The notes: generated by a model from the letters alone, not told the origin. A stretch of 33,474 nucleotides of DNA from Deltaproteobacteria bacterium (GCA_019307065.1 JAFDKH010000031.1:1-33474); one strand, 5' to 3'; counted from the stretch's first letter, positions 7,390 through 21,219 are shown. Numbers and translations are program-made.

Positions 7390-10300
7390 TTACGATGCCT
7401 GGCGACGCTGGGCCGCGCTCATTGAAGTCAATAGCTCACGGTAATTGGCAGCCTCGGCGGTGGGCATTCGTTCCAGACCGGTTCCGGTCAAAGTGCCGTC
7501 GGCTGCCAGGCTCAAGTCGAGTTGGATGGTTTTAGTTAAGACCGGCCCATACTGGTCGGGCAGTCTGACGAAAGGCGCCGTCCCGGTCTTCGAGTTTATG
7601 TCGATTGCCTGGGCGCCCAGAACGAAAGGATAGAGGGAATCAAATGGATTGAAAGTCGATGAAGGATCGAGCCAAATCGGATTCGGATCGCTGCGCAGCT
7701 CTACTTTTACCAGGCCGTGTCTGAAAGTACTCATGTTGGGAAATTTATATTCAATCTGAGAATCTGAATTTGTGCGAACCAACAATACTCGCGATTTGAC
7801 GCCAATACTGCGCAACAAAGCGACCAGTAAGACCAGCCGATTACCCTCCCGGCGAGCCAGGATATGAGAAGCCGGCTCGCTGAAGTCACTGCCTGAACCT
7901 GTCTGTCTGAACATCGAACAGACTTTATGGAATATCAGCCGGATATTCTCACGTGGGATTTTCGATTTCGCAATTTTCTTAGCGAAGCGCTTCAGGTCGG
8001 AATTTGGCAAGCTAGCCTCGTTTAGTTCGACCTGCAAGACATCCCGGTAATCTTTCCAGTCGACGTCGAAGCCGACCTGGACAAAAGGCGTGTATTCATC
8101 AGTCGCAGGTGAGTTTGGCTCGGGCATGACTTGGGCTGCTGAGCGCGTCTCCCAGGATGCAATATCAAAGCCGTTTTCAGAATTGAATACCGGTTTGACC
8201 GGTGACCCGTGGCTATCGATTTGCAGATGGCTGTCTTGGGGAACCGCAACCGAGAATAGAGAAAGATAAATCGGTGTCTTGGCAGCCCGAAAATACCAAC
8301 GCCGACCGACCCAGCCACCGGTATCCAGAACCAGGTTCGAGCTCGCCGAACTTGATAGATATGATAATTCAACAAAATCACCGACCTGCAAGGCCCTTAG
8401 CGAAATAGTGTCTTTTCCCGGAATGGCTTCGGCGTTGACTGTAAGGCCGTCAGGTTTGATCGTACGTATTTCTTCGATGATGGCGCCTGGCGGAATCTGG
8501 TCGATTTCTCCCCAGTGTTCGAGACCCTCGGGCGACCGGATATGTACAATCGTATGCATTCGTTCGACACTCGAGCCGTCATTACCGGTCTGGACGGCCA
8601 TTTGATCGAGCACTAGTACAGAATGTCCAGTCGCCAACGGTTTGGCTTTGAGATACTCGGCAATTAGCTCTTTTGCGTCGACTTTTCGTTCGCCGGCCAG
8701 GCGCAGGTCAGTCAGATCTCCGGCAGCGCCCAGCGCCTGTCTGGCGCGCAAGTTCCAGGGGGCCAACGCAACGAGTTTGGCTCGAATGCGCTGAGCCCCG
8801 GCATGATCACTAATGCGATCAAGAAAATCAGCCTGCTTTTGAAGCACCAGGGGCTGCTCGGGAAATAGCTTGTTTGTTTCGGCAAGCAACTTGGCGGCTC
8901 GGGCTGTCTTGCCGCGCACAACAAATAAGTCGAAAAGAGCCAGCCTGACTGAACGTCTGGCCGGCAAGTTTTTTAGGCTACGTTCCAGGATTGACTCGGC
9001 CCGCTCGAGGTTTTCATGTTCAATCCAGAATCTTGCCAGGTCGTCCCAACTGCCTAGATTTTCAAGCCGCTGGGCCAATTGGATCGCTTTTTGGTGGGCA
9101 TGATTTTTCTTGGCCAGCGAAAAAAGGCTGCGCAACGTCAGCAGATGATTGGGAAGAACACTCAGGGCTTTTCTGTACGATGTTTCAGCTTCAAAGTTCC
9201 AACCCAGTTTTTCATAAACACGGCCCAGAAAGAAAGGCCACAAGAAATTCCCCGGAAGTATTTCTTCAAGCTGTTTCAAGATCTCGAGAGCTTTATCTGA
9301 CTGGCCGCTGGCATGAGACAGGAGGGCCAAATGGAAACGGGCCAACACGGCCGCTGGGCAATTTGAAACTGCTTGTTCGAGGTGCTCACGGCTTTTGGCA
9401 ACATCGATACGCGCGGGAATGTCAGGATCTTCCAAGACGATCAAACCGAGCAAGTAGTCTGACAAGCAGAACTTAGCTGCCCTTTGACGGGCCTGATTAA
9501 ATATCTCTCTGGCTCTGCCCTGATTGCCATCTTCCCATATGAGCATGCCGGCCAGTAGTCCGGATATGGGATCTTGTTGGTTTTGATTGAACCTGTCGAC
9601 CAGCACATCTTTGGCGGCCCTGAAGGGCATGCCTTCGATTGGCTGGTCACTAGGATAGTCTGGTACGGGCTTATCTCCCGTCCACCAATTCACGGCGGCC
9701 TGACTGCCGTCTGCTCCAGTCAGTTCGACCGCCAGGGATAGCTGGTTTGTGCGCATAGGAATCTTGAGCAAGATCCGATGCCAGCCGCGGCCTGTCACAA
9801 ACGGCAGGTGGACTACCCGCGGCAGCTTACCAAGATGGGCCGCGTGAGTATCTAGTGCAGAATTGTCGATGAAGACCACCCAGGAACCTGGACCCTCAAC
9901 ACGCAACGCCAGGTTCACGCGACATGCCTTCGGGCAACTAACTTCGAAAAATGTCTCAGCATACAAGATACCGCCCCGGCCTATTGATTCCAGGTTTAGT
10001 CGGCCTTCTTGTGACCTGCGGAAAATCGGGGGATGCTCAGCGTCATTTTCCAGGCTCGAGATTTCTGGAGGAAAAGACTTTTTGAAATCGACCAAGGGAT
10101 GTCTGCCGAAAGGGTAGCCAATCAGCCATTGTTGCACAACTCCCATTTCGATCTCGATTGCCTTGACTTGCTCGAGATTCCCTTGGCGTAAGAAACCGGC
10201 TTTCAAAATCCGGCGCAGTACTCTTTTACACTCCAACCCGGTTCGGCTGGCAGGCTCGACTAGCTTTTTAACCCGGCTAGAGATCTGACGATGCCCGTTG

Positions 10301-10722
10301 GGTACTTGTTTGGCTACTTCCTCTAAAAGAGTTGCGGCTAGCTGACATTCGGGAGCCTGGGGATAGGCTTCCATGGCTGCCAGCATGGCCTCGAGTTCGC
10401 TCGGAAAATCGGTTTTCAGCAGGCTGATTAGTCCAATTCCAAGATGAGCGAGCATCTTCAACTCAGCCGAGTCGACGGGTAAATTGTCTGCGCTCGATTG
10501 AAAATCAGTCAAGGCTCCGCCGAGATTGTTTTGGTGTACCAGGCGGGCCCAACCTCGGGACAGGTATTGGACAGGTGTTTTTGGTTCAGAGAGGAGGATT
10601 TGTTCAACTAGTTCGGGTTCTAAGTTGAGAATTTGTGGTGAATGAACGCATCCGGCCGAACTAACCACCAGAATGCAAATCAATGCAGTCGGCAGGGTTT
10701 TGCGAATGCTAACTGCCGGCAT
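7390..10722 (-). CDS. Periplasmic TPR/DUF3857/transglutaminase-like lipoprotein, catalytically degenerate and prematurely stopped
   Basis: The product is 1110 residues to the TAA and would be about 1275 if read through. The signal peptide ends in a lipobox-like SSAGC at Cys25. GGAG lies six bases before the ATG at 10722, and the gene overlaps the upstream paralogue's end by 14 bases, suggesting coupled translation. TPR-type helices fill roughly residues 380-690, then a DUF3857-like beta domain (about 730-890) and a transglutaminase-like domain (about 930-1050). Where active homologues have GDCKDKAALL this protein has RREGNRLVLL, with Glu959 in place of the catalytic Cys. The His (TFRHGLVKV) and Asp (IWLDPSSTF) remain. 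It is therefore probably a binding or structural pseudoenzyme. Function unknown. Confidence 0.8.
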   Translation of the reverse strand: MPAVSIRKTLPTALICILVVSSAGCVHSPQILNLEPELVEQILLSEPKTPVQYLSRGWARLVHQNNLGGALTDFQSSADNLPVDSAELKMLAHLGIGLISLLKTDFPSELEAMLAAMEAYPQAPECQLAATLLEEVAKQVPNGHRQISSRVKKLVEPASRTGLECKRVLRRILKAGFLRQGNLEQVKAIEIEMGVVQQWLIGYPFGRHPLVDFKKSFPPEISSLENDAEHPPIFRRSQEGRLNLESIGRGGILYAETFFEVSCPKACRVNLALRVEGPGSWVVFIDNSALDTHAAHLGKLPRVVHLPFVTGRGWHRILLKIPMRTNQLSLAVELTGADGSQAAVNWWTGDKPVPDYPSDQPIEGMPFRAAKDVLVDRFNQNQQDPISGLLAGMLIWEDGNQGRAREIFNQARQRAAKFCLSDYLLGLIVLEDPDIPARIDVAKSREHLEQAVSNCPAAVLARFHLALLSHASGQSDKALEILKQLEEILPGNFLWPFFLGRVYEKLGWNFEAETSYRKALSVLPNHLLTLRSLFSLAKKNHAHQKAIQLAQRLENLGSWDDLARFWIEHENLERAESILERSLKNLPARRSVRLALFDLFVVRGKTARAAKLLAETNKLFPEQPLVLQKQADFLDRISDHAGAQRIRAKLVALAPWNLRARQALGAAGDLTDLRLAGERKVDAKELIAEYLKAKPLATGHSVLVLDQMAVQTGNDGSSVERMHTIVHIRSPEGLEHWGEIDQIPPGAIIEEIRTIKPDGLTVNAEAIPGKDTISLRALQVGDFVELSYLSSSASSNLVLDTGGWVGRRWYFRAAKTPIYLSLFSVAVPQDSHLQIDSHGSPVKPVFNSENGFDIASWETRSAAQVMPEPNSPATDEYTPFVQVGFDVDWKDYRDVLQVELNEASLPNSDLKRFAKKIAKSKIPRENIRLIFHKVCSMFRQTGSGSDFSEPASHILARREGNRLVLLVALLRSIGVKSRVLLVRTNSDSQIEYKFPNMSTFRHGLVKVELRSDPNPIWLDPSSTFNPFDSLYPFVLGAQAIDINSKTGTAPFVRLPDQYGPVLTKTIQLDLSLAADGTLTGTGLERMPTAEAANYRELLTSMSAAQRRQAS

Positions 10723-13700
10723 GCTGATCTCCAGTTAGAACCAGTCGGTGATCGAAAAACCTATCGACCTGGCCAAGGAATGTTCGAAAGGCAGAATATT
10801 CGCTCGCCGCAATACGACTTTTGAGGATCTGGAACTCGGCCTTTACAACGACTTCATTGCCTTTGACTAAGAACTCGAGCTTGGCTCGTCCAAAGGCAGT
10901 TTCCAGCTTGCCATTTTCGGGCAAGGCAGTGAGTTTGTATCCTTTAGGCAGGCAGTGAGTAATCGACCAGTGAATTGTCCAGGGAGGAGCCAGCACCAGA
11001 TCGTGATTGCGTTTCTGGTAAGGCGAAAAGATCTTCTGGTAGACCGTATTCCTGCCCAGGGCCGGAATGTCGACGGTCTTTTGCTTGCGCTGAGCCATAA
11101 ACGGTACTTTGAACTTTGCCTTGGTGACGAATGGCAGGTCCGGGCGCATCAGGTTTTCAAGGTCGAGACTGTCTACCCGGCTGCCGGGGAATAATTCATT
11201 CATCGTCCGCTCGAACACATCCTTAGGCGCTAAGCTGCCTATGAATTGAGCCCTCATCGATGGGGCCATACTGCCGATGACTTCAACCTGCGAGTGAATA
11301 TCGGCACTATTGTCAGGGTTGTGTTTTATGGTGAACTTGATCCGAGTTTGGTTCTGCTCGGCAGTAGAAGCTTTTGTAGTTGTCAGATTTTTGGAGTTGC
11401 TGTCAATCACCAGCGCAACAATGTCTTGATCTTGGGGAGGCAGATCGTTGATATCGTGGAAAGGTGCCGTGGCGTCCAGCCATATGTCGAAGTCAGGAAG
11501 ATAACAGATCGCATGATTGAAGATAGCCAGTGACGGGGGGGATGGATCAACTTTTCCAAACCGGCTGGTTCGGACCAATGCCAGGTTGGCGCGAATACCG
11601 GCCTCGCGTAGCAAGCTAACCAGCAGGGCCGCCTTGTCTTTACAATCACCGAATTTACGCGAGAGTACTTGCGAAGCCTGGTAAGGAATATAGCTGTGGA
11701 TGCCGAATTCGAGGCCAACGTAGCGAGTACGATCCGATACAAAACGATAGATAGCCCGAATTTTCTCCTCGGGTTGTTTGATCTCAGCTGTTAAATCGCG
11801 GGCGAGTTTCTTGATTTTGGGTCCGGCCAGGAGTTGATTGGCACTCAGGTCTTGGTACCAGCTGCCGAGTTTACTCCAGTTCGCGTGGGTCGAGATGTGT
11901 AAAAATGAGTGAGTTTCGGTGAAGCCGGGCATGTTTGGCTCTGGTTCGATTGCATTGAGGTTGTGGGCTTCCCAAACGTGAACAATGTGGTTAGCTGTGG
12001 TCGACTGTTTATGCGAGGCCCGGCTGGGTATGTTGAACTTGATTTTCTTTTTTACCGGCGCCAGCAGTACATAGCTGACCTGGCGAGCGGGTACACTGAA
12101 TTCAAAAGGAGACAGATCGCCGAAGTAGCCGTCGAACAAGGTCTGGCTGCCGATATCGTCTAACTGATATGTCAGCTCGACCAGATCGCCGGCCGCCAGG
12201 GACGGAAAAGTGATTTCCCTCAAATTAACATCATAGTACAAGTTGTACCATGGTTCCGAAAGTATGTAGTCGTTGATTAGCACGCTGAGATCACCACGGC
12301 CGTCAGGGTGTACAACTCGACTTTGAAGAACTCGAAGTTGTTGACGTCCGGGGGAGTAGAGGATCTGAAAAGTACGCATGCGCTCAGCCCCGTGCGAAGT
12401 GATGATCTTCAACAGTTGTTGTCGATATCTGGAAGTCATCCCGTTGGGAAATAGGCGCACGACTGTCAGATCCACGAGCCTGATCGCATCGGCGCCCGGA
12501 TAGGCGCTTTGCTCCAGAGCGGGAAGCTTCTCTAATTCCATTGCCCATGGTTTGTAAAAGGCTTCTTTTTTGACATCCAGTGATTCGATGTGACGCTGCA
12601 GGGCTCTATCCTGCGGAGAAAGCGCCAAGGCCCGAGTCCAGTGTTTGAGTGCTTCTTCAAAGCGACCCAAAGCGACAAAGGCCAGGCCCTCGCGGATTAG
12701 TCCGACAGGATTTCGGGGACAAATAGTCTGAGCACGCCGGTAAGCATCGAGCGCCCGGCTGTGTTGTCCGTTGTGCAGCAGCAGGTCGCCTTGCTCAATC
12801 CACCAACCAATTCGCAAAGGTGCAGACCTGATTAGGCGATTCAACCAGGCCAGAGCCGTTGTCAGATCGCCGCGCTTATTAGCCAATTCGAAAAGTGCCC
12901 GCAATCCAAGATGGTCATCAGTTTTGAGCGCGATGAGTTGGCTATACAATTCGCGACTGCGTTCGAAGCGACCCGATTTTCGGTAGAAGTTGGCAGCTAC
13001 CATCATTACTTCGGGGACATCAGGGTAGGCCGCTACAAGCCTCTTTATTCGTAGTTCTGCAAGGGAGTCGAGCTGAAAGTTTTGCAGGAGTTCGACAAGC
13101 TCCAATTCGGAAGGTAGATAGCCTGGATGAACAGCTAAAACTTGTCGATGAATCTTTATCGCTTGATCGACCCGATTGCGAATATGGTTGGCCAGGCCGA
13201 GTTGAAAAAGGGCGGCGATATAGTTTTTTGATGTGGCCGGTATTTGCCGTAGAAGCCTGTCTGCCTGATCGGGATCGTCGCAGGCCTTAGCCAGCATCAA
13301 GCGAGTGTCGTCGCATTCGGACCGACAGTTGTCCAGGAGCTCAATAGCCTGATGCACAAGTTGTTCGCTTCGACGTTGACGGTTGTCACCAACCCGCGTG
13401 CGGATCAAGACAAAGGCGTTCTCGGTGAGAATCCTCGGGTTCTTCGGGTGCAGTTCGGATCTTTTTTCAAACCAGTCGGCCAGGGTCGGGCCGGCAGTGA
13501 TTTTTCCAGGTGCGGCGGGCATACTTTCGTTCAGGATTTGCCGAAGTTGCCCGGCATCTGAAACACTTTTTATGGCGGTGATTGGCTCCCCGTGGCGATC
13601 AGTTACCGCCAAAGAAAAACCCCAGGCACCCTCATTCTGGATGACCTTCACCAGAACACGATTTTGGCCGCGCGGCAGAGTCATCATCAACGAATGTTGG

Positions 13701-14404
13701 TCCTCAGCGTAGCGGTGAAAGCCAGGATCATCGAGAACCAGCTGTTCGTTGATCCAGATCTTGCAGCCATCATCGCAGCCGGCATGAAGGTGAATCTGCG
13801 TGTCCCGGTTGGTTTCTAAGATAGTCAGCCCATAGGCTGCTACCCGGTTGTTTGGCCGGTAGAGCGGGTGTAAGCGTACCTGGCCGTCGTTGGTCCCGGC
13901 CGGGTAGCGCCGCCAGGCTAGCTTTGTCTCTTTACCTTGCGGTTGCTGATCGAGATCGACGATTCGCTCGGGAGTAAAGACTGTTTTGTGTCCACGATTG
14001 CCTTCATTGTCGAATGGACCGATCAGCCACCAGTCTTCAATATAGCCCAAGCGTTGCCAGGTCGCTCGGGACTGTTCGTCGTCAGAAGCGCTGCGCAGTG
14101 ATTTGGCCAGCATTCGAATGGCTAAACGCTTCATAGGCAAGGGCGTCTTTTTATCGGCGGAGATAGTTTTGAGAATGGTCATCAGTCGTTGGCGGGATCG
14201 TCCGTCAAACAAATCTTGTAACTCTTCAAGCCGCCAAAGGTCGATTGCCTGATTGACTGAAATATTTGATTTCTCGAGTTTGCTAAGCAGGTGATCGATC
14301 TGGCTTATTGGTTGTGCCTGGGCTGCCTGACTAGCCAGGACCGAAACGATTAGGCAAAGACCAACAACCAGGCGATGGCACAAGACGCGCGGGAAGGCTG
14401 GCAT
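10709..14404 (-). CDS. Periplasmic TPR/DUF3857/transglutaminase-like protein
   Basis: The product is 1231 residues with a Sec signal peptide ending around AQA/QP (residues about 30-31). A sugar-binding-like beta region with an IHLHAGCDDGCKIWIN stretch (about residues 200-240) precedes TPR repeats (about 390-640). A DUF3857 domain (about 690-860), a transglutaminase-like core and a DUF3858-type C-terminal beta domain follow. The catalytic triad is intact: Cys921 in KFGDCKDKAALL, His964 in FNHAICYL and Asp977 in IWLDATAPF. The stop of the preceding gene is 12 bases upstream, so all three genes here are likely one operon. The ribosome-binding site is weak, consistent with translational coupling. 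Proteins of this architecture are widespread in Bacteroidetes and deltaproteobacterial lineages, but their substrates are not established. Confidence 0.85.
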   Translation of the reverse strand: MPAFPRVLCHRLVVGLCLIVSVLASQAAQAQPISQIDHLLSKLEKSNISVNQAIDLWRLEELQDLFDGRSRQRLMTILKTISADKKTPLPMKRLAIRMLAKSLRSASDDEQSRATWQRLGYIEDWWLIGPFDNEGNRGHKTVFTPERIVDLDQQPQGKETKLAWRRYPAGTNDGQVRLHPLYRPNNRVAAYGLTILETNRDTQIHLHAGCDDGCKIWINEQLVLDDPGFHRYAEDQHSLMMTLPRGQNRVLVKVIQNEGAWGFSLAVTDRHGEPITAIKSVSDAGQLRQILNESMPAAPGKITAGPTLADWFEKRSELHPKNPRILTENAFVLIRTRVGDNRQRRSEQLVHQAIELLDNCRSECDDTRLMLAKACDDPDQADRLLRQIPATSKNYIAALFQLGLANHIRNRVDQAIKIHRQVLAVHPGYLPSELELVELLQNFQLDSLAELRIKRLVAAYPDVPEVMMVAANFYRKSGRFERSRELYSQLIALKTDDHLGLRALFELANKRGDLTTALAWLNRLIRSAPLRIGWWIEQGDLLLHNGQHSRALDAYRRAQTICPRNPVGLIREGLAFVALGRFEEALKHWTRALALSPQDRALQRHIESLDVKKEAFYKPWAMELEKLPALEQSAYPGADAIRLVDLTVVRLFPNGMTSRYRQQLLKIITSHGAERMRTFQILYSPGRQQLRVLQSRVVHPDGRGDLSVLINDYILSEPWYNLYYDVNLREITFPSLAAGDLVELTYQLDDIGSQTLFDGYFGDLSPFEFSVPARQVSYVLLAPVKKKIKFNIPSRASHKQSTTANHIVHVWEAHNLNAIEPEPNMPGFTETHSFLHISTHANWSKLGSWYQDLSANQLLAGPKIKKLARDLTAEIKQPEEKIRAIYRFVSDRTRYVGLEFGIHSYIPYQASQVLSRKFGDCKDKAALLVSLLREAGIRANLALVRTSRFGKVDPSPPSLAIFNHAICYLPDFDIWLDATAPFHDINDLPPQDQDIVALVIDSNSKNLTTTKASTAEQNQTRIKFTIKHNPDNSADIHSQVEVIGSMAPSMRAQFIGSLAPKDVFERTMNELFPGSRVDSLDLENLMRPDLPFVTKAKFKVPFMAQRKQKTVDIPALGRNTVYQKIFSPYQKRNHDLVLAPPWTIHWSITHCLPKGYKLTALPENGKLETAFGRAKLEFLVKGNEVVVKAEFQILKSRIAASEYSAFRTFLGQVDRFFDHRLVLTGDQHAGS

Positions 14405-14416
14405 TCAGACCGGCTC

Positions 14417-15010
14417 TTAGTTCCAAACGAGGTCGGGAGGTTCAAAGACTATCAACTTGCTGACAAGTGTATCATTGTTTCTTTGATACCCGAAAAACGT
14501 AATAATTTGCTCGCCGTCGTCATTCTCGGTTACTTGCATTTCTATTCCGAGCGACAGGGCTCGATTCTGAGCCGCAGACAAAGTCAGGCGGCCCTGGCGG
14601 ATTACCGCAAGGATTTCAAAAGCCATCATAGCCTTCATAAATGTCAGGCTGGAAGATAACAGGATTGAATCCTGATCTAGCATGGAAGCAGCCATATAGA
14701 CTTGTAGTCCGGTTTGGCCGGTCACCGACCAGATAGTCATGTCTTTAATGTATTCTTTACCGGAGCCGTCGAAATCGGTTTTGAGGGCCTTGGTCAATGC
14801 AGCAATGGATTCTTCATTCCAGTTCGAGTGTATTCGTACGTTTTCGTATTTCTTATAGTTGTTGGTCAGCCTGGTTAAAAAAAGGATGCCTTTGGCCAAA
14901 TCGTGGTTTTCGAGGATTTTTTTTGCGCTGGCAAAATTCATTTCGACGATTGTCTGACCGTTCGCCGAACCAGCCGAAAATAGCAGAAACAATGTAATTA
15001 TGCAGCGCAT
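14417..15010 (-). CDS. Small exported protein, function unknown
   Basis: The product is 197 residues. MRCIITLFLLFSAGSANGQT is a Sec signal peptide with cleavage likely after ANG. The start at 15010 is chosen because GGAG lies seven bases upstream; a longer frame from 15058 would bury the signal peptide. The mature part is alternating helix and beta (NHDLAKGILFLTRLTNNYKKY; a long hydrophobic helix around SSSLTFMKAMMAFEILAVI). I recognise no family. It is the first gene of the TPR/DUF3857 operon, 12 bases before the next start, so it probably works with those proteins in the periplasm. Confidence 0.75.
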   Translation of the reverse strand: MRCIITLFLLFSAGSANGQTIVEMNFASAKKILENHDLAKGILFLTRLTNNYKKYENVRIHSNWNEESIAALTKALKTDFDGSGKEYIKDMTIWSVTGQTGLQVYMAASMLDQDSILLSSSLTFMKAMMAFEILAVIRQGRLTLSAAQNRALSLGIEMQVTENDDGEQIITFFGYQRNNDTLVSKLIVFEPPDLVWN

Positions 15011-15075: not shown

Positions 15076-15154
15076 GGGGTTGGAGGGTCTCATATCTCAC
15101 TTTCTTATCCCTCTGGTCTTCCGAAGAAAATGAGATATGAGACCCTCCAACCCC
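15076..15154. repeat. Long palindrome: 24 bp perfect arms with an inner 6 bp extension
   Basis: 15076-15099 is the exact reverse complement of 15131-15154 (24 of 24). After one mismatch the pairing continues for about six more bases (TTTCTT with AAGAAA), leaving a loop of about 17 bases. The palindrome supplies the last ~18 codons and the TGA of the S24/S26 peptidase gene. Neither side has a T-run, so it is not a standard intrinsic terminator. It may be a small palindromic (MITE/REP-like) insertion or a strong mRNA 3' stem. Confidence 0.85.
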
Positions 15155-15564
15155 ATGCGCCTGAGTGTGGTTCTGAGCATAGCCAGAATGAAACCTGGCG
15201 AAAGCCAGCGCGACAACGGCCGGCGGGTCTGGACGATTCGTGCATAGATTTGGTCGGCTTTGATTCTATCGCCGGCGCTTAGTTCAGCATCGCCGCGAGC
15301 AACAAAGTATTTACCGTCAGCGTCTTTAGCGATCAATCGATGAAGTCGCGGGCCGCTTTGAGTGTCGACAAGGACTACCTGGCCGATCTGCGGGCCGCCG
15401 GGATCGAGTGGGCCGATAACGACTTCATCTCCATCGGCGATAGACGGGAACATGCTGTGACCCCTGGTGCGAAAGTGCAGCCGGCCGCCCTTGGCGATTA
15501 CTTCCCTGGCCAGTTCGACGAGTTCAGAAGATAGCAGCAGGGTTGTTTTGACAGGCTTATTCAT
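15097..15564 (-). CDS. S24/S26 (signal-peptidase-like) serine peptidase of the putative RiPP operon
   Basis: The product is 155 residues. The ATG at 15564 overlaps the TGA of the kinase gene (ATGA), which fixes the start. The nucleophile motif GHSMFPSIADGDEVVI places Ser37. The GPRLHRLIAKD stretch (His75) replaces the Lys of classical leader peptidases, as in the Ser/His subgroup, and the YFVARGDAE box follows. Length is short for a signal peptidase and no N-terminal membrane anchor is visible; a hydrophobic stretch near 121-133 might associate with the membrane. In this operon it is the natural candidate for cutting the leader off the precursor peptide. Its last ~18 residues are encoded by the palindrome at 15076-15154 and may be acquired sequence. 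Confidence 0.82.
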   Translation of the reverse strand: MNKPVKTTLLLSSELVELAREVIAKGGRLHFRTRGHSMFPSIADGDEVVIGPLDPGGPQIGQVVLVDTQSGPRLHRLIAKDADGKYFVARGDAELSAGDRIKADQIYARIVQTRRPLSRWLSPGFILAMLRTTLRRMGLEGLISHFLRKTRGIRK

Positions 15565-16481
15565 ATACCGGCTGCCTCGATTGCAGTCTGATCGGGAGTG
15601 AAAAATAATCTTCGACAAGGTACTCTTCGTACTATTTCAGTACAACATTTCAGAATAAAGTCCATACCACTTCGCGGCCAGCCGGCTAAAAAGCAAACCA
15701 TAAAAAGAGCACTGGCGGCTGATTCGGGTTGCATGACCTCGATGGCCGACTTGGGTGCCTTGTGCAGGAAGTTGATCGTAGCCAACTGGCCGGATTCAGG
15801 CGAAGCGTAAGGCGCTTCACCATGCCAGGGAGTACCATAGACTGTGTAGTTGTCCGCCTCGGTTCGGATAATAAGGCGATCGTCTGAAAGAATGTGACCG
15901 ACTTTCAGATTGTCGAAGACTCTCGCCAGGGTGCTCTTACCGGCCCCGGATTCGCCGACGAATATGTGAACTTTGCCGTCCATCTTTACCCCGCAGCCAT
16001 GCACCAGCAAGCCCAGCCCGCGCATCAGCATGAATGATACCCACAGTTCGTGCAGTGGATCCCGAAGCAAGAACGGTTGCGGCCCATCTTCAAGATCGGA
16101 CGGATCGAGTACAATTGAGCCACTCGACAGCTCATTATTCAGTTGGAGTATATGATAGGGGTTGCCGGGCGGCGGGCCTTTTCTGAGCACCAGCTGGATA
16201 CCAAACTCGGTTTGATCAACCCGCCAGACACCGCCAGAATCAAACAGGCTGCGCTCAGAATCAAGTGGACCGAGTTTTCCAAGGTGACCACGACAGCTAG
16301 CCGTCGGACTGGATTGATCAACTAAAAAAGGATGGAGTCGTTTGGGTACGTTGGCCGTCAGTTCATCCTGGACGACGATTGAGATATCTCCGACCGAAAG
16401 GGTTGGGTTCAGCTTCCCCCTCCGCTGCAGCCGCCCGGACAGCCGGGGCCATAAGGACCGGCTCCGAGTCCGCCTTTGCAA
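15561..16481 (-). CDS. HPr-kinase-like P-loop kinase of the putative RiPP operon
   Basis: The product is up to 306 residues. The C-terminal half has the HprK kinase fold: Walker A GESGAGKST at residues 176-184, a DD pair in HILSDDRLII (200-201) and GTPWHGE. The lid and tail regions typical of bifunctional HPr kinase/phosphorylase are not obvious. HprK-like kinases with PqqD proteins are known from the HPr-rel-A systems and from paeninodin-type lasso peptide clusters, where they phosphorylate the precursor. The start is uncertain. The first usual codon is TTG at 16481, inside the precursor gene and encoding an Arg-rich run. A CTG at 16412, overlapping the precursor's TGA, has a far better GGAGG at six bases and would give 283 residues. 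The 3' end overlaps the peptidase gene by four bases. Confidence 0.82.
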   Translation of the reverse strand: MQRRTRSRSLWPRLSGRLQRRGKLNPTLSVGDISIVVQDELTANVPKRLHPFLVDQSSPTASCRGHLGKLGPLDSERSLFDSGGVWRVDQTEFGIQLVLRKGPPPGNPYHILQLNNELSSGSIVLDPSDLEDGPQPFLLRDPLHELWVSFMLMRGLGLLVHGCGVKMDGKVHIFVGESGAGKSTLARVFDNLKVGHILSDDRLIIRTEADNYTVYGTPWHGEAPYASPESGQLATINFLHKAPKSAIEVMQPESAASALFMVCFLAGWPRSGMDFILKCCTEIVRRVPCRRLFFTPDQTAIEAAGI

Positions 16482-16603
16482 ATTCCCATCAGAGCTTCGT
16501 TGACCGAAATTTCGGTATAGGTGACTCGAGGAGGCTCATACTGCTCGCGCAGATCTTGCTTTTTGGCTTTTGGCCCGATCTTTGTGCGCTCGGCCTTTTT
16601 CAT
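16409..16603 (-). CDS. Putative RiPP precursor peptide (64 residues)
   Basis: The peptide begins with a Lys-rich, hydrophilic leader (MKKAERTKIGPKAKKQDLRE), then a YEPPRVTYTEISVNEAL segment that resembles leader motifs recognised by PqqD-type domains. It ends in a low-complexity core: MGICKGGLGAG and GPYGPGCPGGCSGGGS. Cys are at 42, 55 and 59, and the last residue is Ser64. KGG or GAG around residues 43-49 are possible leader cleavage points. The ATG overlaps the radical SAM stop (ATGA) and is preceded by GAGG at eight bases. Its place between the radical SAM and kinase genes makes it the likely substrate of the operon. The final structure and modification are unknown. Confidence 0.8.
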   Translation of the reverse strand: MKKAERTKIGPKAKKQDLREQYEPPRVTYTEISVNEALMGICKGGLGAGPYGPGCPGGCSGGGS

Positions 16604-17673
16604 GCGGTTTTCCTCGCGCTGTTTTGGCGAAGAGTGTTTGCCCTGGCCTGGGTTACCTGACAGTGGTAACCGCTACGGTCCTTGGGCGGCGAATCACCCA
16701 AACGAGCAAGCCCCGGACAGTAACCGCACAGATGAGTCAAATCACATTGCCGGCAAGCTGAGTCGGCCGGGTAGCTCGGACGCCGGGCTTCGGCAAGTTG
16801 TTTCCAACCCGAGCTGAATCCGCTTAGGGCGATATTCACAGCTGGTTCACGTAATAAAAGACAGGGCATCAGCCGACCGAGCGGATCAATGTTGAAAGAC
16901 GAAAAACCGGCCCCGCAACTGAAATCATTGTCACACACATTTTTTTGGCTGAATTGCCGATCGTATTTTTCGAGTTTATCAACTCGTTCGGTGTCGGCGA
17001 GTTCTATAGCAATTGCAATGTCCGGATCGGGCCTGAGTGCCAGGGGCGCCTGATCGCCGGTCAGGGTCGGGTCAATACCGGGATCGAAACGCAGGCCCAG
17101 GCCTCTTTGGCTGGCAAGCTTGCGCATCTTTTCGGCCTGGCTCACCAGGGGCGCGAGCAGGACAGCTTTGAGAACTACTTTGAGACCGCGCTTTAGCAGA
17201 TGATCGATTCCGGCCAGCGTGCGCAGAAAATTGCGGCTCGAGCCGGTGATTGCCTGGTAACTTTTTTCATCACCGCCGTACAAAGTGACTTCGATACAAC
17301 GCGGAGGATTGGCGGCCAGCAAGTCGGCCAGCTTTTCGTCTATGAGGCTGGCATTGCTGAAGACGGCTACTAAAAAGCCTTTGCCAAGAGCGTGCTTGAG
17401 AATGTCGGCGAAGTCCGGTCTGAGGAGCGGTTCTCCGCCGGTGAATGACAGGCCCAGGCAGCCAGCCTCGGCCAGCTGGTCGAGAATATTCGTAACGGCT
17501 GTACAGCTCATTTCTTTTTCGGCAGATTGGGTGCCCTGCAAGTAACAATGTTTGCAGTGGAAGTTACAAGCCCGAGTGAGTTCGAAAGTGCCGTTGAGCG
17601 GAAACCTTTTTCCGGACAGTTTTTCTCCGAGTCTTTTCCTGAACCACTCGTGATTTTCTTGGCGGATTGTCAA
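16600..17673 (-). CDS. Radical SAM/SPASM peptide-modifying enzyme
   Basis: The product is 357 residues. CNFHCKHC (Cys36, Cys40, Cys43) is the CxxxCxxC motif that binds the SAM-cleaving 4Fe-4S cluster, followed by GLSFTGGEPLLRPDF. The C-terminal part has a SPASM-type Cys set for auxiliary clusters: CGAGFSSFNIDPLGRLMPC, then CRQCDLTHLCGYC and a final Cys. Enzymes of this class (PqqE, AlbA, anSME and related) make cross-links or other changes on peptides. The start is TTG at 17673, overlapping the PqqD stop (TTGA) with GGAG five bases upstream; the last base pairs overlap the precursor start. The reaction cannot be predicted; thioether or C-C links involving the precursor's Cys are plausible. 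Confidence 0.92.
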   Translation of the reverse strand: MTIRQENHEWFRKRLGEKLSGKRFPLNGTFELTRACNFHCKHCYLQGTQSAEKEMSCTAVTNILDQLAEAGCLGLSFTGGEPLLRPDFADILKHALGKGFLVAVFSNASLIDEKLADLLAANPPRCIEVTLYGGDEKSYQAITGSSRNFLRTLAGIDHLLKRGLKVVLKAVLLAPLVSQAEKMRKLASQRGLGLRFDPGIDPTLTGDQAPLALRPDPDIAIAIELADTERVDKLEKYDRQFSQKNVCDNDFSCGAGFSSFNIDPLGRLMPCLLLREPAVNIALSGFSSGWKQLAEARRPSYPADSACRQCDLTHLCGYCPGLARLGDSPPKDRSGYHCQVTQARANTLRQNSARKTA

Positions 17674-17984
17674 CTCGGCTCCTGCGGTATAGCTTCGATC
17701 GCTCTGAAAGAAAGTAGCTCCCGGCAGAACAATTCAGTGTCCCGGCGGGCAGTCTCGCTGTCGATTTTGAAGCGCGAGCAGACGCCATCAATCACTTCAG
17801 CCAGCTTGCGGGTGCCGTCGATTAGTTCCCAGACGACAGACCCGACTCGATTGAGGGTGTAAATACCGAGTTTCTGGCGAGAGTCTGAGCGAATTGGCAC
17901 CAGCAGAATTTCATCCGCGATTCGTCGGAATTCAACCCGATTGGTGTGCCTGAAGCACGATTCTGCTTTAAAAACCTGCGTCAT
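17670..17984 (-). CDS. PqqD-family protein (RiPP recognition element)
   Basis: The product is 104 residues. The segment KLGIYTLNRVGSVVWELIDGTRKLAEVIDGVCSRF, with the following helices (ARRDTELFCRELLSFRAIEAI), has the PqqD winged-helix pattern of three strands and three helices. PqqD domains bind leader peptides and hand them to radical SAM partners. It is the first gene of the operon and is translationally coupled to the radical SAM gene. No Shine-Dalgarno sequence precedes the ATG, and a strong promoter is so close that translation is probably leaderless. Confidence 0.88.
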   Translation of the reverse strand: MTQVFKAESCFRHTNRVEFRRIADEILLVPIRSDSRQKLGIYTLNRVGSVVWELIDGTRKLAEVIDGVCSRFKIDSETARRDTELFCRELLSFRAIEAIPQEPS

Positions 17985-17990
17985 TGACTA

Positions 17991-18019
17991 ATAATACTTC
18001 AAATTCAGTTAGTTGTCAA
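17991..18019 (-). promoter_or_regulatory. Strong sigma-70-type promoter of the RiPP operon, probably giving leaderless mRNA
   Basis: On the minus strand TTGACA (18019-18014) and TATTAT (17996-17991) are 17 bases apart, close to consensus. Transcription should start around 17985-17984, at or next to the A of the PqqD ATG. The absence of a ribosome-binding site agrees with a leaderless transcript. Confidence 0.65.
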
Positions 18020-18103: not shown

Positions 18104-18162
18104 AAGAAGGTTTCAACGAATAACGGCAGTGGAAAAACAGCAGTTTCACAAACGAGGTGTCG

Positions 18163-21100
18163 GTGACGGACAATCTCAAGCGGTGTTTACTGGCGCTCTT
18201 TTTAGTAGCCAGCCTGTCAGCCAACGTGCTGGCCGACGCAACCATCGACGTCGACGGAGATCTCTCCGACTGGCCGGCCGACGCATTTACATTCTACGAT
18301 GAGAATCAAGATATGCCGTTCTTCTGGCGGGATATCTTGCAGATCCAGATGACTAACGACAATACCAGCGGCTCCGATGGAAACTTGTACCTGGCGATCG
18401 AGTTCAGGGGAAGGTTTAGGGAAAATTTCGGCGGTATCGATATCGATATTTATATCAACCTGGATATAGACGGGGACGGACAGATCGGTGGCCCCAACGA
18501 TCGAGTTATTGAGCTGACCGAAGGTACTGTGACCGATGGTGACGGCAACCCGGTCGGCTCAGTCGGCGAAATGGATTATTCGGGTGTATTTTTAGAGGCC
18601 AGCATTCCTTATAGTGTTTTGGGTCTGAGCCACGGCAGTGATGTTTTTGGGGTGTCGGTGGTGACTACCGGTGTCCCGGGGCATACTGACTATTCCCCTG
18701 AACCGGGCGAGGGCGATGATGGTTTCATCGTCTACGATGGCACTACCGGAGATGGGGGTGAACCGCTGGCCGTACGCCTGCTGGCCTTGGCGGCCGCGAC
18801 TGGAAATGAGGGCGTCACAATCCACTGGGCAACCGGGTCGGAAAGAGGCAATGCCGGCTTCGACGTCTATCACCTGGATGCCAAGAGAAATCTTACGCGC
18901 TTGACGAAAAACCCGGTGCCCGGGCTGCTGAATGCTTCCTTAGGACAGAACTACCATTTCACTGATCGCGATGGACGCGCCGGGGATAGTTATCTGGTCG
19001 AGGATATTGAAGTCAACGGTCGCCGCAAGAAACACGGACCGATAGTCGCCAGGTCATATCTGCAAGATCCGGTGTTTGAGGTGCGGCTCGGGCGGACCAA
19101 GCAACCCAAGAAGAGTTCGCCGACTAAAATACAATCCATATTCAAATTGCCGGTAGACACTAAAAACTATTCAGCCGCGGTCAAGATCGCAGTCGCCCAA
19201 GAGGGCCTCAATCGCCTGACTCACGACGACCTGGTGGCGGCCGGGCTGGACCCGGTCGCTTTGCAGAACGAGGGTCTGACTCTTGAGCGTAAGATAGGTT
19301 TGGTGCCGGTCTTGGAATTCAACTCTGAATTCTGGTTCGTCGGCCAGCCCGAGCCCGATCGCTACGCAGATTTCGAAGTGCTTAAGGCTGCAACCGGAGC
19401 CGGGCGCAGGATGAGTACGCGCAAAGTGGATGGTAGTTGCAGGGCAGAAGTCAGGGACGTCTTTGACTCGATCGTCATAGAGAAAAATCTGGCTTATCAC
19501 ATCGCTTCGCCGACCAACGACCCGTTTTTCTGGGCCCTGGCCTTCGATGGGGCCCCGGCTGAGCTGACCTTTGACCTGCCGCGCGCAACTAGTCGATGGG
19601 TCAGCTTGCGAATTCATGTGGCCGGAACTGGCCCGAGGCACTCGATCTCGGTTGTACTCAACGACCTGCCGGTTGGCCGGGCCATATGGAATGGTCGCCA
19701 AATGCAGCAGTTTACTTTCAAAGTCAAAGCCGCTGGGCTTCTAGAGCAAGGCAATCTCTTAGCGATTGGACTTTTGCCTGGTCGGGCGGCCGACGTGGTC
19801 TTCGTGGACAAGATCGATTTTTCGTATCAACGAGCCCTCGAAGCCGGTGATCAAACGCTGGTTTTCAATGCGAGTTCAGGACAATGTTTGAGAATCGACG
19901 GCATCGCCGAAGGCGAACTCTTTCTGCTGGATGTCTCCGACCCGGCCCGACCTGTCAACTTGACCGGGTATAGAACTATCTCGTCGGCCGATAACCTGTC
20001 GATTCAGTTCCAGGATAAAGCCATCGTCCCGATTGGCTTCAGCCGGACAAAGCCGCGCAGATATTTGCTGGCTACTTCAGCGATGTTTTCGGTGCCTGAT
20101 TCGCGCGGTGCCTGGCAAGCCAGCGACCTGATGTCTGAAGATCTCGAAGTCGATTACCTGGTGATCACTCATCCGGATTTTAGGCAAGCTGCCGAACGAA
20201 TAAGCGCGTTTCACCTAAGTCAGGGCCGCAGAACCTTGGTCGCCTCAACCGAACAAATATATACGACTTTCAATCACGGCCGGCCTTCCGCCCAGGCCAT
20301 CCAGGACCTGCTTCATACGGCCCGCACCAACTGGAGTGTCGCGCCGGTATTTGTTTTATTGTTGGGCGGCTCGACTGTCGACAGTAATAATTACCTGGGA
20401 TACTCCGAGACTGATTTCGTTCCGGCCCCATTCTGGGTTAGCTCGGTCAGCGGATTCGAAGCCGCATCCGACGGGTGGTATGTAGCCGCTCAGGATGGGC
20501 TGACTCCCACTGCGGCAATCGGGCGATTAGCGGTGAGAACCAGCCAGGCGGCCGATCAAGTTGTCGATAAGATCATTGCCTGGCAGACCGCTCCGACTCT
20601 CCTGACCGATCGGATGCTTTTCATAGCCGATCGGGATCAAGCCGACCAGTCCGAGGAAGACGGTATTTTCGAGCACCTGATTGGCCGGCTAATCGAAGCC
20701 TGTCTACCGGATTCGATTCAAGCCGAACGTCTCTTGGTTGCCCAGAGCGAAGATCCGGCCAGTGAACTGCAAGCCATCATTGAAAAGGGTGTCGACAGTA
20801 TTAATTACGTTGGGCATGCCTACTTGGAGGGCTGGTCGAGTCCCCCGATTATGACAACTCAACTGGCCGGCCTGCTCGCCAATCAACAACCGTTCTTTTT
20901 ATTCTCCTGGTCGTGTTTCGATGGGGCTTTCACCGGTCCCTGGGGTGACTCGCTGGCCTGGGCATTCGTGCAAAATCCTGACGGCGGAGCACTGGGCGCC
21001 CTGGCTGCCTCGTCACTGAGTGACCCGCGGGCCGTGGCTGAGCTGGCCGAATTGACCCTTTGCTTGATCACGTCCAGTGAGGCCGAAACTCTAGGGCAGG

Positions 21101-21219
21101 CGGTTGCGCGCGCAAAGCAAACATTGCTTGGTATAGATCAGGCGCATCAAGATCTAATCTCTACTTTCAATCTTCTCGGAGATCCGGCCCTGCCGAATCC
21201 CTGGATAAACAACCCTTAG
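18163..21219 (+). CDS. Secreted gingipain-family (C25) cysteine peptidase-like protein
   Basis: The product is 1018 residues. The GTG at 18163 is preceded by GAGG at five bases; a GTG at 18157 is less well placed. A Sec signal peptide (cut near VLA/DAT) is followed by a CBM9-like beta domain (about 20-180, ATIDVDGDLSDWPADAF). A region common in C25 proteins (VTIHWATGSERGNAGFDVY) comes next, then central beta domains and a C25 catalytic domain from about residue 665 (VVITHPDF...). His885 in NYVGHAYLEGW and Cys918 in FSWSCFDGAF are 33 residues apart, the same spacing as His211/Cys244 in RgpB gingipain, so the dyad appears intact. It ends soon after the catalytic domain, with no sorting tail. 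It may degrade extracellular protein or process secreted products; a link to the divergent RiPP operon is only positional. Confidence 0.85.
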   Translation: MTDNLKRCLLALFLVASLSANVLADATIDVDGDLSDWPADAFTFYDENQDMPFFWRDILQIQMTNDNTSGSDGNLYLAIEFRGRFRENFGGIDIDIYINLDIDGDGQIGGPNDRVIELTEGTVTDGDGNPVGSVGEMDYSGVFLEASIPYSVLGLSHGSDVFGVSVVTTGVPGHTDYSPEPGEGDDGFIVYDGTTGDGGEPLAVRLLALAAATGNEGVTIHWATGSERGNAGFDVYHLDAKRNLTRLTKNPVPGLLNASLGQNYHFTDRDGRAGDSYLVEDIEVNGRRKKHGPIVARSYLQDPVFEVRLGRTKQPKKSSPTKIQSIFKLPVDTKNYSAAVKIAVAQEGLNRLTHDDLVAAGLDPVALQNEGLTLERKIGLVPVLEFNSEFWFVGQPEPDRYADFEVLKAATGAGRRMSTRKVDGSCRAEVRDVFDSIVIEKNLAYHIASPTNDPFFWALAFDGAPAELTFDLPRATSRWVSLRIHVAGTGPRHSISVVLNDLPVGRAIWNGRQMQQFTFKVKAAGLLEQGNLLAIGLLPGRAADVVFVDKIDFSYQRALEAGDQTLVFNASSGQCLRIDGIAEGELFLLDVSDPARPVNLTGYRTISSADNLSIQFQDKAIVPIGFSRTKPRRYLLATSAMFSVPDSRGAWQASDLMSEDLEVDYLVITHPDFRQAAERISAFHLSQGRRTLVASTEQIYTTFNHGRPSAQAIQDLLHTARTNWSVAPVFVLLLGGSTVDSNNYLGYSETDFVPAPFWVSSVSGFEAASDGWYVAAQDGLTPTAAIGRLAVRTSQAADQVVDKIIAWQTAPTLLTDRMLFIADRDQADQSEEDGIFEHLIGRLIEACLPDSIQAERLLVAQSEDPASELQAIIEKGVDSINYVGHAYLEGWSSPPIMTTQLAGLLANQQPFFLFSWSCFDGAFTGPWGDSLAWAFVQNPDGGALGALAASSLSDPRAVAELAELTLCLITSSEAETLGQAVARAKQTLLGIDQAHQDLISTFNLLGDPALPNPWINNP

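Follow-up and report, generated by a model that had tools for sequence, protein, structure and literature searches.

Gene organization of the operon

The DNA stretch analysed here (33,474 nucleotides, GCA_019307065.1 JAFDKH010000031.1:1-33474, from a Deltaproteobacteria bacterium; referred to as the window) carries a compact operon, which a first-pass annotation made from the sequence alone had assigned to a ribosomally synthesized and post-translationally modified peptide (RiPP) matured by a radical S-adenosylmethionine (SAM) enzyme, with an added kinase and serine peptidase. Five genes occupy the minus strand from position 17984 to 15097, in the order PqqD-like protein, radical SAM/SPASM enzyme, precursor peptide, kinase and peptidase, and all five frames were confirmed. 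Consecutive genes overlap by 4 nt at all four junctions (TTGA, ATGA, CTGA and ATGA, in gene order), provided that the kinase starts at CTG 16412, a codon preceded by GGAGGGGG. The mechanically assigned TTG start at 16481 is unlikely, because homologous kinases align from CTG 16412.

The first gene, conserved in this position (17670..17984), encodes a 104-aa PqqD-like RiPP recognition element (RRE) protein (PF05402, E=7.7e-13), whose best named NCBIfam model is the lasso peptide B1 protein NF033536 (27.2 bits versus a cut-off of 80). The second (16600..17673; TTG start within the TTGA overlap with the PqqD gene) encodes a radical SAM/SPASM peptide maturase of 357 aa (PF04055, E=1.6e-21); its seven SPASM cysteines are all present. 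The radical SAM CxxxCxxC motif and the seven SPASM cysteines are retained in 31-33 of 33 homologues, the exceptions being mainly partial sequences, and thus a PqqD-like RRE is combined in this operon with a radical SAM/SPASM enzyme having complete cluster-binding cysteines. The enzyme scored under the cut-off for every NCBIfam radical SAM family shown, and none of the NCBIfam (20.0) models shown reached its cut-off for any of the five proteins. The only PADLOC hits, generic matches of the radical SAM core to viperins, were rejected.

The last gene (15097..15564) encodes a putative soluble S26-type serine peptidase of 155 aa. Taken alone, its similarity to S24/S26 peptidases is weak (E=0.017 in Pfam; E=3.3e-4 for the NCBIfam archaeal-type signal peptidase I model; 17.5 bits for the NCBIfam SodX-like protease). 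The protein carries a GxSMxP serine, an LHR histidine and a GD motif, and an alignment of 15 homologues keeps GxSM, HR and GD, with Cys replacing Ser in one homologue. Judged from these motifs, it is a peptidase with a Ser-His S26-type site and no evident membrane segment, and it is likely the leader peptidase of the system.

The precursor peptide and the kinase

The third gene (16409..16603) encodes a 64-aa peptide, MKKAERTKIGPKAKKQDLREQYEPPRVTYTEISVNEALMGICKGGLGAGPYGPGCPGGCSGGGS, with a YxxPxV motif, three cysteines and a C-terminal serine. It had no matches in NCBIfam. The precursor family comprises the window peptide and 34 homologues, which occupy this position in their operons whenever the contig reaches far enough; in the counts given below, the 35 sequences are taken as they are, with kinship among them uncorrected. 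All 35 contain the motif Y/WxxPx[LIVYMF]. The first cysteine lies 20 residues past the tyrosine in 31 of them, a cysteine is followed by Lys or Arg in 32, and three cysteines are present in 29. The last residue is Ser in 32 precursors, Thr in two and Ala in one (G183), and the penultimate residue is Gly in 28; the window precursor ends in GGGS. As a background value, 7.8% of 792 long frames at related loci have a C-terminal Ser. Precursors of different families or phyla have little in common beyond the motif, the cysteines and the C-terminal positions.

The terminal Ser is written with all six of its codons (AGC, AGT, TCC, TCG, TCA and TCT), and the constraint therefore acts on the protein. 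The possibility that this residue is imposed by a ribosome-binding site or a gene overlap was ruled out by the six codons and by the gaps of ~80-100 nt separating the precursor and kinase genes in distant operons, and conservation in 34 homologues excludes a chance open reading frame (ORF). The first-pass annotation had named an absent or unconserved small frame in homologous operons as the observation that would speak against its reading; in the comparison, the peptide proved to be conserved in three phyla, C-terminal Ser included. The operon thus encodes a conserved short precursor beside enzymes, as is typical of RiPPs, and this precursor ends in Ser, as do the substrates of lasso-type C-terminal Ser kinases. 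The C-terminal Ser would be the natural site for the kinase.

The kinase gene (15561..16412; 283 aa) shares the CTGA overlap with the precursor stop codon. Its product is weakly recognized in Pfam (Hpr_kinase_C, 14.2 bits versus a cut-off of 33.3). An AlphaFold model based on a 14-row alignment had a mean predicted local distance difference test score (pLDDT) of 92.4 and a predicted template modelling score (pTM) of 0.90, and the matches listed by Foldseek were solved structures of phosphoenolpyruvate carboxykinase (PEPCK) and HPr kinase (HprK). The protein is predicted from this model to have the HprK/PEPCK fold. Its candidate catalytic residues, His138, Lys159, Asp177 and Asp178, are conserved (His and Lys in 35/35 kinases, the first and the second Asp each in 33/35), and the same His-Lys-Asp-Asp set is essential in lasso peptide kinases (PMC9266682; PMC10368454). 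With the kinase profile, a subfamily at E <=2.6e-69 stood apart from other HprK-like proteins of the window's phylum, which scored 2.7e-33 and weaker; a divergent kinase copy in genome G092 gave E=3.1e-29.

Distribution of the operon and its partner genes

Homologous operons were identified in three phyla, the window's own and those to which an Omnitrophota and a Desulfobacterales record belong, and the order PqqD, radical SAM enzyme, precursor, kinase, S26-type peptidase is conserved across them. The radical SAM orthologues are ~40-58% identical in six genomes of the window's family, with more distant ones elsewhere. At most loci of the window's phylum, the PqqD, radical SAM, small-frame and kinase genes stand in this order, commonly followed by the S26 gene; the operon of G136 is divided between two contigs. 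Of 285 genomes sampled from the phylum of the Omnitrophota record, where only the best loci were inspected, 56 had kinase matches with E<1e-30, as did 12 of 297 genomes from that of the Desulfobacterales record. The precursor is present at 19 of the 20 distant loci fetched (the contig of L232 begins within the operon). A scan of genome contigs with the peptide pattern returned mostly generic radical SAM proteins.

The five-gene inventory of the first-pass annotation stood, although it had overlooked a partner gene. A secreted peptidase of the C25 (gingipain) family (18157..21219, plus strand; 1020 aa; PF01364, E=1.1e-59) starts 172 bp upstream of the operon, in divergent orientation. Its domain includes the catalytic His and Cys, and the corresponding GH and C motifs are invariant among linked members covering the region; the linked proteins are also equipped with a secretion signal, and their N-terminal domain is conserved. 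A C25 gene adjoins the operon in the window and at 12 other loci, one of which (L240) belongs to the Desulfobacterales group. In G040, G181, G183 and G092 the sole C25 gene of the genome is the one beside the operon, and G024 has one strong C25 gene, again at the operon. In a C25 tree, ten linked copies formed one clade (support 0.97) separate from 20 others, among them the copy of G136, which is linked as well. General synteny as the cause of this linkage was ruled out, because four genomes from other families have their sole C25 gene at the operon, and the gene differs in position and strand between loci. A Lys-gingipain-like cut at CKGG was not supported, as the C25-linked precursors of G040, G183 and G092 do not have that Lys. 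A more distant C25-linked cluster (L080, 4562-4807) contains kinase, PqqD, radical SAM, S26 and C25 genes with a Pro-ended WAQPRI...GGSCPP peptide.

Also overlooked were the wide spread of the operon and a second variant of it. Near the operon, 17 of the 20 distant loci carry an NTP_transf_5 nucleotidyltransferase gene, usually together with an ABC-2 exporter. C25 and NTP_transf_5 were found together at none of the loci examined (L183 is too short to judge). A tree of the radical SAM enzymes places the C25-linked operons of the window's phylum together (0.885) and L240 with the NTP_transf_5 group, a hint that the partner was gained or exchanged.

Several further arrangements were noted. Locus L233 (2485-3017, Omnitrophota group) has repeated precursor copies, one of them partly N-masked. 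A second, different cluster with a radical SAM enzyme, an HprK-like kinase and an S26 fusion lies in the genome of the window (G000:C171, locus L113, 219-3235) and encodes a 49-aa precursor-like peptide (RYKQPEI...PPDEG) terminated by Gly. At five loci of a large-genome family, HprK-like kinases are encoded near YxPPAxxWEQxFVALAQ-type peptides whose last residue is P, E or D instead of Ser. Seven loci have a related type of precursor, marked by YxxP and FERxxLxC, near radical SAM enzymes and mostly also near HprK-like kinases; several of these peptides end in Ser or Thr and one in Tyr. Kinase-free PqqD/radical SAM loci of uncultured proteobacteria (L022 and L023, 5869-5958) encode a tiny Cys-terminated WxKPVIRSRSLKxAC peptide.

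The 172-bp gap between the PqqD and C25 genes contains two outward-facing promoter-like sites, TTGACA-17-TATTAT ahead of the PqqD gene (17991..18019, minus strand) and TTGGCA-18-TATAAT ahead of the C25 gene (18074..18103, plus strand), each assigned by 11/12 consensus matches only. Downstream of the operon, a conserved protein with a putative signal peptide (14417..15010, minus strand) had no match in Pfam or NCBIfam. Four further genomes of the family encode homologues 43-52% identical to it in the neighbourhood of the operon. Its gene has a promoter-like site of its own, and its membership in the operon is uncertain. The region 7390-14404 encodes, in overlapping genes, two large tetratricopeptide repeat (TPR) proteins with DUF3857/transglutaminase-like regions, and the order of these genes and that of a 213-aa protein is retained beside the operon in G004 and G003. 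A palindrome at 15076-15154 (31-nt arms, 97% complementary), with further copies at several genome sites, is a miniature inverted-repeat transposable element (MITE)- or repetitive extragenic palindrome (REP)-like element. This repeat runs into the 3' end of the peptidase gene and therefore encodes the last residues of the peptidase.

Relation to known systems and proposed pathway

The closest biochemical parallel is offered by the phosphorylated lasso peptides (paeninodin/PadeK, ThcoK, SyanK and pseudomycoidin/PsmK-PsmN), which share with the operon a PqqD-like RRE, a YxxPx(L) leader motif, an HprK-like kinase with His-Lys-Asp-Asp and a C-terminal Ser; a nucleotidyltransferase is a further likeness, in the distant operons. 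The site phosphorylated by PadeK, ThcoK, SyanK and PsmK is the C-terminal Ser of the respective precursor, a residue that is conserved among clusters containing kinases of this kind (PMC9266682). PsmN, an annotated nucleotidyltransferase, is required for hexose addition to the phosphorylated C-terminal Ser of pseudomycoidin (PMC9266682); NTP_transf_5 may be a counterpart of it. Leaders in these systems contain YxxPxL, and in the Bsf system the PqqD-like B1 protein stimulates phosphorylation (PMC10368454). The operon differs from the lasso clusters in having a radical SAM/SPASM enzyme and an S26-type peptidase instead, and a core with about three cysteines. In agreement with the first-pass annotation, neither an asparagine synthetase-like cyclase (lasso C protein) nor a B2 transglutaminase-like leader peptidase was found among the window ORFs scanned; the proteins with transglutaminase/DUF3857 regions at 7390-14404 were rejected as B2 candidates, being large TPR proteins.

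By gene content, the SynChlorMet cassette (ScmC-ScmF, TIGR04248-TIGR04251) is the nearest named set, in which ScmD, related to PqqD, is combined with the kinase-like ScmC and the radical SAM/SPASM enzymes ScmE and ScmF, but it fails by score: the four models gave 19.7-64 bits versus cut-offs of 100-400, which were reached neither by the window proteins nor by the distant members tested, and only one radical SAM enzyme is present here. The HprK-related kinases A and B (HPr-rel-A; TIGR04352, TIGR04355), a system that according to the first-pass annotation also includes PqqD, reached 15.0 and 27.4 of the 200 bits required. GeoRSP (TIGR04302, TIGR04303) resembles the operon in its PqqD and radical SAM/SPASM proteins (22.9 of 100 and 69.7 of 400 bits), and we know of no kinase in that system. 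Sactipeptide and ranthipeptide enzymes (AlbA, StsB, PapB) are radical SAM/SPASM proteins that likewise act on Cys-bearing peptides; their models all remained under cut-off, and to our knowledge these families have no HprK-like kinase. A literature search for HprK-like kinases combined with radical SAM RiPPs found nothing, although most subscription journals were outside its reach and a published description may exist. Each part is known, and the five-gene set is unnamed in NCBIfam 20.0 as far as tested, which bears out the first-pass view that it had not been characterised.

We propose, with a probability of about 0.72, that the operon makes a RiPP by lasso-style leader recognition, C-terminal Ser phosphorylation and radical SAM chemistry on a Cys-bearing core. 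All reactions of this pathway, phosphorylation included, are deduced from sequence. The PqqD protein would bind the leader of the 64-aa precursor via YxxPxV and hand the precursor to the enzymes. The radical SAM/SPASM enzyme would modify the core, most likely forming thioether or other cross-links at the CK...C...C cysteines, a chemistry preferred solely on the ground that the conserved residues of the core are Cys. The kinase would phosphorylate the C-terminal Ser (GGGS-COOH) as PadeK, ThcoK, SyanK and PsmK do on lasso precursors, and the S26-type peptidase would cut off the leader in place of the lasso B2 protein. In the lineage of the window, the product would then meet the dedicated secreted C25 peptidase, which might carry out a later processing or transfer step, or might itself be the target and under the control of the peptide. 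In other phyla its place would be taken by a nucleotidyltransferase, mostly together with an ABC-2 exporter.

Several observations weigh against this proposal. One precursor ends in Ala (G183) and two in Thr, and in a few kinases one Asp of the pair is replaced. The linked C25 of G136 falls outside the linked clade, and the operons G004:C411 and G007:C3 have neither C25 nor a nucleotidyltransferase nearby. The radical SAM product is not predictable from sequence. Other families of the window's phylum combine HprK-like kinases with YxxP precursors whose last residue is P, E, D, C or G, and the site of BsfK is internal (Ser3) instead of C-terminal (PMC10368454); the kinase alone therefore does not imply C-terminal phosphorylation, and the rule that any HprK-like kinase implies a C-terminal Ser was ruled out by the peptides of these other families.

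The Ser3 site of BsfK also agrees with an alternative in which the kinase has a different target, be it another Ser/Thr or a partner protein, and the C-terminal Ser serves some other purpose, such as peptidase recognition or attachment of the peptide through this residue. Most precursors end in Gly-Ser, a possible protease or attachment signal, and the C25 or nucleotidyltransferase usually encoded nearby could act at this end. However, four lasso kinases are documented to act on the C-terminal Ser, and where this residue is replaced in the precursor family, it is mainly by Thr, which can also be phosphorylated; we therefore regard this alternative as unlikely. That the peptide is a scaffold for a small redox cofactor, as in the pyrroloquinoline quinone (PQQ) and mycofactocin pathways, is highly improbable. 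The mycofactocin maturase is the best NCBIfam match of the radical SAM enzyme and PqqD is common to the PQQ pathway, but the score (MftC, 94.5 bits) is far under the cut-off of 265, PqqE reached 66.1 of 381 bits, and PQQ and mycofactocin pathway genes are absent among the window genes scanned. Precursors of those pathways are known for a conserved aromatic pair, whereas the precursor here has a variable core, three cysteines and a C-terminal Ser.

A further suggestion concerns the fate of the product and is compatible with the proposed phosphorylation pathway. The peptide could serve cell-surface assembly, its (phospho)Ser end being linked to a surface polymer by the nucleotidyltransferase or by C25 acting as a sortase, the role ascribed to PorU, a C25 member. 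Several Omnitrophota-group operons do lie beside GNVR/Wzz-type and ABC-2 transport genes, the two partners never share a locus examined, and the linked C25 has its secretion signal and conserved N-terminal domain. No polysaccharide genes were seen among the window genes scanned, though, and gene neighbourhood is indirect evidence, which leaves this fate rather unlikely.

As far as its genes can tell, the operon very probably yields a small modified peptide phosphorylated at its end, and the five genes and peptide pattern shared by its relatives in three phyla mark an unnamed, widespread class of peptide natural products. More tentatively, and at somewhat less than even odds, it would represent a separate RiPP class of at least three phyla, in which the peptide bears radical SAM-made cross-links beside a C-terminal phosphoserine or, in operons with the nucleotidyltransferase, a phospho-glycosyl derivative, and in which the C25 branch employs its dedicated gingipain-family enzyme for processing or attaching the peptide at the cell surface. 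If the proposed pathway is true, lasso-style tailoring, that is YxxPxL-guided phosphorylation of a C-terminal Ser, would be a movable module that is also paired with radical SAM chemistry. The conserved features supply a search rule for such peptides, namely YxxP, a Cys 20 residues further along and a Gly-Ser terminus, encoded next to an HprK-fold kinase, and the C25 pairing makes a link between protease and peptide directly testable. Given the frequency of kinase matches among the sampled genomes of the Omnitrophota record's phylum, the class may be among the commoner RiPPs of poorly cultured bacteria.

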